Positions 5,559 to 32,581 of a DNA stretch of 64,000 bases are shown one piece after another. Each line of letters starts with the position of its first letter. The stretch's first letter is position 1. This DNA is from Urbifossiella limnaea (GTDB lineage: Bacteria; Planctomycetota; Planctomycetia; Gemmatales; Gemmataceae). The stretch lies in assembly GCF_007747215.1 (NCBI RefSeq), contig NZ_CP036273.1, positions 2,712,322 through 2,776,321 of the forward strand, given 5' to 3'. The notes beneath the pieces are model-generated. The model was given only the letters and a program-made list of their open reading frames with translations. It did not search any database and was not told where the DNA came from. A program made the position numbers and the translations under genes.

Positions 5559-6374
5559 ATGCCGACGGACGAGCCGACCGAACAACCCTTCATCGCCTAC
5601 GAGCTGCACCAGCCGGTGGACTACCCGCTGGAGGCGGCGCCCATCAACCGCGAGTGGATGGACAAGGCGCACCTGCGCTTCCCGTACCGCTGCCTGCCGC
5701 TGACCATCGCCAACCAGGCCGGTTGGGTCATCCGTAGCCCGATCGGCTTCGCCGTGTACTGGTACGGCGGGCCGAACAAGGAGGACGTGGAGGTCCGCTT
5801 CGACGGGCCGCCCGACCCGCGCGTGTGCAGCCACTTCGGCGTCGGCACCTTCACGTTCACCATCCCGTTCCTGTTCCGCACGCCCCCGGGCATCAACCTG
5901 TGGGTGAAGGGGCCGACCAACTGGATCAAGGACGGCGCGCAGCCGCTCGAAGGCGTCGTGGAGACCGACTGGCTGGCGTCGACGTTCACGATGAACTGGA
6001 AGCTGACGCGGGTGTGCGAGTGGGTGCGGTTCGAGCGCGGCGACCCGTTCTGCATGCTGGTGCCGGTGCCGCGCGGGCTGGCCGAGAGCCTGGTGCCGCG
6101 GCGCGAACGGATCGAGTCGGCGCCCGACCTGAAGGCCGAGTACGACGCCTGGCAGGCGAGCCGGAACACGTTCCTCCACGGGCTCCACACCCGCGACCCG
6201 CAGGCGGTGAAGGTGGGCTGGCAGAAGGACTACTTCCAAGGAAAACGGCAGGGCGGCGAGGGGTTCGAGGAGCACCAGACGAAGCTGGCCATCCGCGAGT
6301 TCGCCCCGGCCCCGCCGCCGGCCCCGGTTTCGCTTCCGCCCCCGACGGCGGAGGACGAGGCGGGGCCGTACTGA
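5559..6374 (+). CDS. DUF6065-like hypothetical protein
   Basis: The 271-residue soluble protein has no signal peptide. It contains the segment CLPLTIANQAGWVIRSPI (about residues 44-61) and a Trp/Tyr-rich core (FAVYWYGGPNKEDV, LLFRTPPGINLWVKGP-like stretch). I associate this with the DUF6065 family, from memory and unverified. The tail is proline-rich and acidic. Function is unknown; such proteins are sometimes found near peptide or oxygenase-type enzymes. The gene starts 36 nt after the preceding stop and ends 14 nt before ung, so it may be co-transcribed with ung. Confidence 0.6.
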   Translation: MPTDEPTEQPFIAYELHQPVDYPLEAAPINREWMDKAHLRFPYRCLPLTIANQAGWVIRSPIGFAVYWYGGPNKEDVEVRFDGPPDPRVCSHFGVGTFTFTIPFLFRTPPGINLWVKGPTNWIKDGAQPLEGVVETDWLASTFTMNWKLTRVCEWVRFERGDPFCMLVPVPRGLAESLVPRRERIESAPDLKAEYDAWQASRNTFLHGLHTRDPQAVKVGWQKDYFQGKRQGGEGFEEHQTKLAIREFAPAPPPAPVSLPPPTAEDEAGPY

Positions 6375-6388
6375 ACCGGGAGCGACCG

Positions 6389-7156
6389 ATGGCCAAGAAG
6401 AGGCCCGCCGCAGCCGCGCCGTCACTGTTCGACGCCGAGCCCGCGGCTTCGCGGCCGGCCGACGTGCCGGGTTTGCCTGCCGACCTGCCAGAGTCCTGGC
6501 GCGCCGTGCTGGAGCCGGAGACGCACAAGCCCTACTGGGCCGACCTGTCGCGCTTCGTCGCCGAGGAGCGCGCCGCCCACGCCGTCATGCCGCCCGCCGC
6601 CGACGTATTCAACGCCTTCAAGTTCACGCCGCTCGACGACGTCAAGCTGCTGCTGCTCGGCCAGGACCCCTACCCGACTCCGGGCGTGGCCCACGGCCTG
6701 TGCTTCTCGGTGCTGCCGGGCGTGAAGGTGCCCGCCTCGCTGAAGAACATCTACCGCGAGCTGCAAGACGACGTGGGGGCGACGCCGGTGACGCACGGCC
6801 ACCTGGCGTCGTGGGCGAAGCAGGGCGTGCTGATGCTGAACGCCTGCCTGACGGTGCGCGCGAACGAGCCGAACTCGCACGCCGGGAAGGGGTGGGAAAA
6901 ATTCACCGACGCCGCCATCCGCGCCGTGAACGACCGGGCCGAACCGGCAGTGTTCCTGCTGTGGGGGAGCTACGCCCAGAAGAAGGCGAAGCTGATCGAC
7001 GCGGCGCGGCACACGGTCATCAAGGGCGTCCACCCGTCGCCGCTGTCGGCGTCGAGCGGGTTCTTCGGCAGCCGGCCGTTCTCGGCGGTGAATGCGGCGC
7101 TGGCGGGGCACGGCGTGGCGCCGATCGTGTGGCAGCTACCTACGTCGCCGGAATGA
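6389..7156 (+). CDS. ung: Uracil-DNA glycosylase (family 1)
   Basis: This enzyme removes uracil from DNA in base-excision repair. Of 255 residues, the first 35 or so are a non-conserved extension. The water-activating motif is GQDPYP at residues 91-96 (D93 catalytic). The usual following His is Pro here (GQDPYH in E. coli), but the next segment GVAHGLCFSV is fully typical. LMLNACLTVRANEPNSH and the C-terminal DNA-intercalation loop HPSPLSA are present. The stop codon TGA (7154-7156) lies inside the first word of a 90-bp palindrome shared with the convergent kinase gene. Confidence 0.95.
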   Translation: MAKKRPAAAAPSLFDAEPAASRPADVPGLPADLPESWRAVLEPETHKPYWADLSRFVAEERAAHAVMPPAADVFNAFKFTPLDDVKLLLLGQDPYPTPGVAHGLCFSVLPGVKVPASLKNIYRELQDDVGATPVTHGHLASWAKQGVLMLNACLTVRANEPNSHAGKGWEKFTDAAIRAVNDRAEPAVFLLWGSYAQKKAKLIDAARHTVIKGVHPSPLSASSGFFGSRPFSAVNAALAGHGVAPIVWQLPTSPE

Positions 7157-7241
7157 CCAACGCCCAATGACCCACCAATGACCAAGCGGGGGAACCGCTG
7201 GGTTTCCCTGGTCATTGGTGGGTCATTCGGCATTGGTCATT
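7152..7241. repeat. 90-bp palindrome of AATGACC words that contains both convergent stop codons
   Basis: The left arm is 7152-7184 and the right arm 7209-7241, with 31 of 33 positions complementary. The arms repeat the word AATGACC(A/C). The 24-nt centre is itself nearly complementary (GGGGAACC / GGTTTCCC). The TGA of ung (7154-7156) and the TGA of the opposing kinase gene (7237-7239) are both read from the outermost word of each arm, each as GAA TGA. A bidirectional transcription terminator is the simplest role. Confidence 0.9.
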
Positions 7242-8820
7242 CGGCACGTCGCCAACGCACACGGAACGTCGTCCCGCGAAGGGGCGCGGAGTCGATTTCG
7301 AGCGAAGCTCCGTGGTGTTCGAGCACCACCGCCACGAACGACAGCCCGAGCCCCATGCCCGCGCTGTAGCCCTCGTACAGGGCATTGTCGCGCTTCGTGC
7401 TGAAGTGCGTCGTCAGGCACTTCATCCGCACGTCGTCGGTCATGCCGATGCCGTTGTCGCGCACCTCCAGCACGGCCTCGTCGCCGTCGCGGAACGCCCG
7501 CAAACTCACCTCGCCCTTCCACGCCGCGGCGTCGAGCAGCCGCTGCTTTCGGCCGGCCGCGTCGCCGCCGCGGGCCGCCTCGCGGAGGTGGTTCCGCATC
7601 TCGAACGTGGCGTCGCGGGCGTTGAACACCAGGTTCTCGACCGCCTGCTGCAGGTGAGACAAGTCGCCCGTCACCGGCAGCGGCACGCCCGCGGGTGAGG
7701 CGGTGAGCCGCAGCTTCCACTTGTCCCAGGCCATCGCCGCCCACGTGCGCTCGGAGTCGCGCACCAGGTCGTTCAGGTCGAGCTGCGTGAGTTCGGTCTT
7801 GTTCGGGTCGCGGCGGACGGTGCGGAGGATTTGTTGCAACCGCTCGGTGACGGTGCCGAGCGTCGCCTTCACCTCCTGCAACATGCCGTGCTGCTCGCGG
7901 GGGAGGGCGTCGGCCTCCATGCACCGGGCCAGCAGGTCGTTCGGCCGCACCAGCAGGTTCTTGATGTTGTGGGCGTAGCTGCCGGCCATGATGCCGATGC
8001 TCGCGTACAACTGCGACTTCATCTCCAGCGCCGCCCGCTCGGCCTCGGCCGCGCGGCCCTCGACCTTCGCCTTGTCGAGCTCGGCCGCGAGCACCTGCCG
8101 CTCCAACTCCTCGGCCGCCTGCTTCGCTTGTACCAACTCCAGCTCGCGGTGCTCGGCGGCGAGGCGGTCCTCGTAGTCGCGGACCTCGCGGTCGCGCTCG
8201 CGGCGCAGGAACCGCACCACGAAGTACGACACCACCGCGAACCCGGCGACGAGCACGGCGACCGCCGCGAACTGCCCGACGCGCCGCTCGCGCTGCTCCT
8301 GCTCGAAGCGGTTCAGGCTGTGTGCCCGGTACTCGCAGCGGATGCGGCCGCCGCCGGCGTCGAACTCCAGCACGCGCACGCGCCCCTTGGCGTCGGCCCC
8401 CGGCCGCGGGATCGGCGAGCGCCACGCCGGGTGTGCGTCTCGGCCCGGCGGCGGGTCGCGGCCCGGCAACTCGACCGCGATCGCGTACACGTCGGGGAAC
8501 AGCGGCAGCTTGCCGGCGTACTGCCGCGTCGGCTCGGCGAGTGCCGTCAGGTGGGCGTCGATCTCGTCGGCCTTCAGCCGGAGCCGCTCCGGGTCCGTCG
8601 TCTCGGCGTACTCGCGGACGAGTTCCGGCAGCGGCTTGCGGAACACGCGCGACTCGTTCAGCCACTCGCGCACGTCGGCCTCGTCCGTCTCGCGGGTCCA
8701 CTCGCCGCGCGCGGCCAGTTGCCACCCGACCCAGCCGACGGGGATGAACCACAGGACGACCAGCGGCGCGAGCCGCCAGACGTAGCGGCGGACCGACGGC
8801 GGCGGGATGACGCTGCTCAT
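7237..8820 (-). CDS. Membrane-bound sensor histidine kinase
   Basis: The 527-residue protein has a membrane helix near residues 16-36. An extracytoplasmic domain of about 145 residues follows, then a second helix (183-205) and a long charged coiled coil (206-270). The phosphoacceptor region is SYAHNIKNLL with H284. The ATPase domain has the N-box ENLVFNARD (395-403), DNGIGM (455-460) and GMGLGLS (488-494). It should autophosphorylate in response to a periplasmic or membrane signal. No response regulator gene is adjacent. It starts 14 nt after the stop of an anchored extracytoplasmic protein, which could be its ligand-sensing partner. The ATG at 8820 follows GAGG at a long spacing. Confidence 0.9.
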   Translation of the reverse strand: MSSVIPPPSVRRYVWRLAPLVVLWFIPVGWVGWQLAARGEWTRETDEADVREWLNESRVFRKPLPELVREYAETTDPERLRLKADEIDAHLTALAEPTRQYAGKLPLFPDVYAIAVELPGRDPPPGRDAHPAWRSPIPRPGADAKGRVRVLEFDAGGGRIRCEYRAHSLNRFEQEQRERRVGQFAAVAVLVAGFAVVSYFVVRFLRRERDREVRDYEDRLAAEHRELELVQAKQAAEELERQVLAAELDKAKVEGRAAEAERAALEMKSQLYASIGIMAGSYAHNIKNLLVRPNDLLARCMEADALPREQHGMLQEVKATLGTVTERLQQILRTVRRDPNKTELTQLDLNDLVRDSERTWAAMAWDKWKLRLTASPAGVPLPVTGDLSHLQQAVENLVFNARDATFEMRNHLREAARGGDAAGRKQRLLDAAAWKGEVSLRAFRDGDEAVLEVRDNGIGMTDDVRMKCLTTHFSTKRDNALYEGYSAGMGLGLSFVAVVLEHHGASLEIDSAPLRGTTFRVRWRRAE

Positions 8821-32472: not shown

Positions 32473-32581
32473 GTCCTTTGTCATTCGTCCTTTGTCATTC
32501 GGCCTCACGGCAGCGAGGATCGCCCCGCGGCGAGTCCAGTGCTCGAGGGACGAATGACGAATGACGAATGACGAGTAGGAC
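32473..32581. repeat. Word-type inverted repeat between tuf and tRNA-Trp
   Basis: The left arm (32473-32506) repeats TTTGTCATTCG. The right arm (32545-32581) repeats GACGAAT three times. The arms are complementary apart from short gaps and cap a GC-rich 38-nt centre. It starts 6 nt after the tuf stop and ends 2 nt before the tRNA, so it could terminate or process the tuf mRNA. Confidence 0.8.

Follow-up and report, generated by a model that had tools for sequence, protein, structure and literature searches.

A long palindrome holding the stop codons of ung and a convergent histidine kinase gene in Urbifossiella limnaea belongs to a REP-like family of gene-end repeats

The DUS and USS uptake words are short words that occur as inverted pairs downstream of stop codons and serve there as terminators. 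In Escherichia coli, many REP elements are found 1 to 20 nt from an ORF's 3' end, and REPs less than 16 nt from a stop codon reportedly stall ribosomes and can reduce translation (both as cited in PMC12306157). A literature search on gene-end palindromes of planctomycetes yielded nothing directly relevant beyond a REP survey (PMC3733652), and the repeat words described below did not occur as text strings in the papers searched. The palindrome analyzed here, from a 64-kb stretch of the Urbifossiella limnaea genome (the window), likewise sits at gene 3' ends and contains the stop codons of two convergent genes.

This palindrome spans positions 7152 to 7241 of the window (90 bp), at the junction of ung, specifying a uracil-DNA glycosylase of 255 aa (6389 to 7156, plus strand; PF03167), and a sensor histidine kinase gene (7237 to 8820, minus strand; HATPase_c, PF02518; start codon inferred). 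Pfam and homologues agree on both identities. The left arm (7152 to 7184, plus strand) reads AATGACC AACGCCC AATGACC CACC AATGACC A and is followed by a 24-nt loop (7185 to 7208), predicted by folding to pair partly with itself, and by the inverted right arm (7209 to 7241, minus strand). The original prediction of a 90-bp palindrome with arms matching at 31 of 33 positions was confirmed by the sequence and by a repeat finder, which returned 34-nt arms at 94%. It also held that the outermost AATGACC word provides GAA TGA to both genes, and this is indeed the case: ung ends with CCG GAA TGA (stop at 7154 to 7156, plus strand) and the kinase gene with GCC GAA TGA (stop at 7239 to 7237, minus strand). 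RNA folding of the hairpin gave a minimum free energy of -76 kcal/mol (z = -10.7), matched by 0 of 200 shuffles and thus far above chance expectation. No Rfam family matched at gathering score between positions 6000 and 9000 of the window, so that a known RNA family was rejected as its identity.

The window contains seven AATGACC words, six of which fall in this palindrome. Its own genome (G000; Gemmataceae, 7.8 Mb in one contig) harbors about 37 interspersed copies, this one included. Alignment of 34 copies defined an element of about 90 bp with symmetric ends (GAATGACC...GGTCATTC) and the consensus GAATGACC AATnnCC AATGACC CACC AATGACC AAGGAAG, loop and inverse; a subfamily carries AATGACG words instead. 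The ung-kinase palindrome is therefore a copy of an AATGACC/AATGACG long-palindrome family, itself within a larger gene-end class. A second, degenerate palindrome of the window (32480 to 32572) has AATGACG-type words and sits 13 nt past another stop codon, just upstream of a tRNA-like sequence. The relatives retrieved via ung are Gemmataceae. A covariance model identified about 33 copies in the nearest congener (G001), 65 in G005, 21 in G002 and 4 in G004 (two-strand matches halved, so that some may be "at least" values), none in the fifth congener, G003, and the family in only 3 of 53 more distant genomes. Such an interspersed family, mainly confined to one genus and with only about 10 of the 37 G000 sites common to G001, is what would be expected of a selfish or passively mobile palindrome devoid of function (MITE- or REP-like), found at stop codons since insertion is tolerated there and space is needed before the next start. 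This functionless repeat is a serious rival to the reading developed below, albeit one that we regard as rather unlikely.

Placement relative to genes bears on both. Genes were called with a home-made codon model, for which the window and the loci served as training data, rather than with a standard caller; the calls for ung, the kinase gene, rpoA and rplQ were checked by homology. In three genomes, 113 of 120 facing stop codons lie within 30 nt of a copy edge, 52 being inside an arm, and nearby start codons are mostly 31 to 100 nt off. Tandem copies are closer to the upstream stop than to the next start at 66 of 73 sites (median, 3 versus 49 nt; p = 4e-13). This apposition to stop codons is tighter than tolerance alone suggests. 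The remaining sites are convergent (22) or divergent (9). Divergent ones are depleted about twofold (p = 0.02), and convergent ones are enriched in G000 only (13 of 37; p = 0.006). A 3'-end role makes no sense for the nine copies (9%) that the home-made caller places between divergent genes, and their modest depletion counts against it; like the copies found within some apparent operons, they favor the functionless repeat.

The excess of convergent sites in G000, together with a very stable hairpin right after the stop codons, could point to a bidirectional intrinsic terminator common to two convergent genes. The canonical signature, i.e., a GC-rich hairpin plus a T-tract, is nevertheless missing: the T fraction is 0.144 against a background of 0.143, TTTT occurs in 0 of 117 tails, and a terminator scan was negative. 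The genome encodes Rho, and in two species an AATGACC-family copy lies between rpoA and rplQ, a position at which complete termination would leave rplQ untranscribed if this gene lacks a promoter of its own. The lack of a T-tract, the presence of Rho and the rpoA-rplQ copy make strong intrinsic termination unlikely, and a shared terminator thus ranks as an improbable explanation for the palindrome. The Rho matches of G000 (contig C1, positions 4165360, 1154202 and 573413) are two full genes scoring above the curated cut-off, plus one shorter gene.

The original prediction took the symmetric ending of the two genes to imply that the palindrome formed at, or moved into, both gene ends and replaced their termini, or that its words evolved from a stop-codon context. 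Words at offsets 0, 14 and 25 of the arm offer TGA in every frame. Of 97 gene ends that face a copy whose outer word is intact, 54 terminate 3 to 52 nt ahead of the word, 26 were scored at the outer TGA (23 after discounting three mis-registered ends) and 17 stop deeper in. The outer word is used more often than the one-third share of inside stops (23 of 40; p = 0.0014). With the two ends of the ung-kinase copy, which fell outside this count owing to its coordinates and were added afterwards, use of the outer-word TGA amounts to about 25% per facing gene end. About 1.4 double cases are thus expected among 22 convergent copies, and the search for further convergent pairs with both stops in outer words returned ung-kinase alone. 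Hence, the symmetry calls for no special event.

Comparison of C termini among relatives separates the two genes. The G001 ung, 87% identical and free of a palindrome at its end, also terminates in CCG GAA TGA, at the corresponding codon; the ung stop therefore probably pre-dates the repeat. Gene order has changed there, the following gene apparently being encoded on the same strand and beginning some 13 nt further along, and loss of a copy in that species may be an alternative. The G001 locus L231 retains GGGAATGACGGATGACGG, which resembles the remnant of a lost copy. A search of G001 for clean empty sites flanked by target duplications showed intergenic DNA too divergent to align. The kinase ends differently: in RRAE* in U. 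limnaea, in RAAEPRV* in G001, where the stop has no palindrome, and in TTEQEEAAR* in G005 and ENEAAR* in G002, both with another palindrome. In a MAG labelled Isosphaera (L053), the kinase reads through a whole arm. Kinase ends thus vary with the palindrome present, a covariation compatible with either direction of change. The proposal that a palindrome at the gene ends had replaced the original termini consequently holds in part: the repeat supplies the end codons and the kinase terminus varies with it, whereas the ung terminus is the same without it.

Replaced termini could also have arisen locally, had one gene end been copied in inverted orientation onto its neighbor. At the G005 ung-kinase junction (L147, L049), a single palindrome spans both coding ends and both proteins end in EEAAR*, as such copying would produce, and the variation of the kinase end noted above is compatible with it. 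The sequence of the U. limnaea palindrome is, however, common to some 36 other loci and so came from elsewhere, and the G001 ung has the same stop without any palindrome. For the ung-kinase copy, inverted copying is largely refuted by family membership and retains very little probability.

The larger class to which the family belongs was charted in a 464-kb sample of G000 (the window together with 400 kb taken at even spacing as 20 stretches of 20 kb). It contains 45 long palindromes (score of 20 or more), 34 of which are no more than 30 nt away from a stop codon facing them; a shuffled control of about half of the sample contained none. Long palindromes occur at -40 to +160 of 46 of 298 gene ends and in 0 of 298 mid-gene segments; about one gene in seven thus has a long hairpin-forming repeat at its stop codon. 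Their sequences are mutually unrelated (GACGGGATGAACAGGA, CACAGAGTCACAGAGGG, CGCAAAGGCGG, AGTTTCG, CCGGCGTGAGCCGG and others). Six more long palindromes in the window (35390, 37550, 46850, 47460, 49757 and 56214), from unrelated word families, each lie 1 to 21 nt from a stop codon.

The same gene junction hosts different palindrome families in different species, as observed at the two junctions examined. Between ung and the kinase gene, G005 and G002 carry GCACGATGA palindromes, a family that is multicopy in G005 and was not found in G000 or G001, and the MAG locus L053 carries a CGCAGATGA palindrome. The rpoA-rplQ spacer (L292 to L297) has an inverted repeat in all six genus members, and three or more sequence families are represented. 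G005, G004 and G001 carry a strict repeat; the imperfect versions in G002, G003 and G000 (z of about -2.5 in the two tested) count against a gene-end palindrome model. Five of the six spacers carry a common short CTTGGCACGG- or GTGGCACGG-like stretch. Recurrence of unrelated palindromes at the same junctions is not readily accommodated by a functionless repeat. Genome-wide, exchange of palindromes is no more than suggested: of the usable G001 gene ends whose G000 orthologues carry a copy, 6 of 19 have another strong palindrome, against a 15% background, a figure that includes an 83-bp palindrome at L223 running into coding sequence, which may be a MAG assembly artefact. At p = 0.06 this difference is not significant and counts against a gene-end palindrome model. 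We put forward only tentatively that the gene ends of this lineage are marked by long palindromes that keep their place while their sequence is swapped among unrelated word-based families, that a DNA-level process at stop codons makes them and keeps them perfect, and that they repeatedly rewrite the last protein codons.

How the arms stay complementary was addressed by comparing copies. Changes on both sides that preserve pairing were found in 17 of 31 pairs, and both arms are altered together between orthologous copies of G000 and G001. Selection on the sense RNA helix predicts more G.U than A.C among single-arm mismatches of the sense transcript; the observed ratio of 38 to 36 (74 informative cells) shows no such excess, and this form of selection was rejected. 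The ratio fits, and suggests, arm correction at the DNA level, e.g., by template switching, a published mechanism (PMC8794818). The same lack of any sign of RNA-pairing selection counts against a functional hairpin and is in line with a functionless repeat.

Our best reading, which we hold with about even confidence, is that the palindrome belongs to a REP-like family of gene-end hairpins that depends on structure and whose arms are kept by template switching. Each copy would be cotranscribed with the preceding gene and would fold, at the stop codon or immediately beyond it, into a hairpin of very high stability. There it might block 3' exonucleases as REPs do, partially stop or pause transcription, perhaps with Rho, or stall the terminating ribosome; by analogy with the E. 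coli REPs, the likeliest role would be that of a 3' hairpin acting on mRNA decay, partial termination or the end of translation. Structure rather than sequence would matter, and template switching between the arms at replication would keep these identical while leaving the sequence free to drift. With the elements lying directly at stop codons and a TGA in each word, a gene that extends into an element would stop at the first in-frame word. For ung, this word would coincide with the probably older stop, while the palindrome would have given the kinase gene its end.

If gene-end palindromes do stay in position through exchanges of their sequence, then structure, not sequence, is what counts. 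RNA processing is little known in planctomycetes, and position-kept palindromes would offer a natural test of whether mRNA ends and protein amounts in these bacteria are controlled by long 3' hairpins. They also provide a clear case for asking whether template switching, more than RNA selection, maintains arm complementarity, and a warning that the C-terminal residues of many proteins there derive from repeats.

Among the known systems, bidirectional or U-tract-less hairpin terminators resemble the AATGACC palindrome in placing a stable hairpin at convergent gene ends. The palindrome differs from them in having no T-tract, a far longer stem, a position within the rpoA-rplQ pair and an interspersed family. 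The likeness to DUS and USS lies in a short word set in inverted repeats after stop codons, but AATGACC words are clustered in palindromes, as in the window, and number tens of copies, not thousands. MITEs and the TIR repeats of Y1 transposases (TIRYT; PMC3733652) are equally interspersed and noncoding, with long inverted arms, whereas no parent element or flanked transposase was found for the AATGACC family. No AATGACC palindrome flanks the RAYT/Y1 genes of G000, G001, G002, G005 and G015, which have only isolated words nearby, so that mobilization by the three Y1 matches of G000 or those of the four relatives was rejected. The best Y1 transposase gene of G000 (L046, 1900 to 2090) adjoins a different repeat, CAGGCTGAAGGCCTGC. 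The unpaired GTAG or CGTC tag that defines REPs of 20 to 40 bp is absent from the alignment of 34 copies, and the family departs from REP/BIME in its length of about 90 bp and its 37-bp arms of heptad words. Like REP/BIME, it consists of short interspersed palindromes that lie outside genes and would be transcribed; as interspersed extragenic palindromes abutting the 3' ends of ORFs, its members are REP-like in the broad sense.
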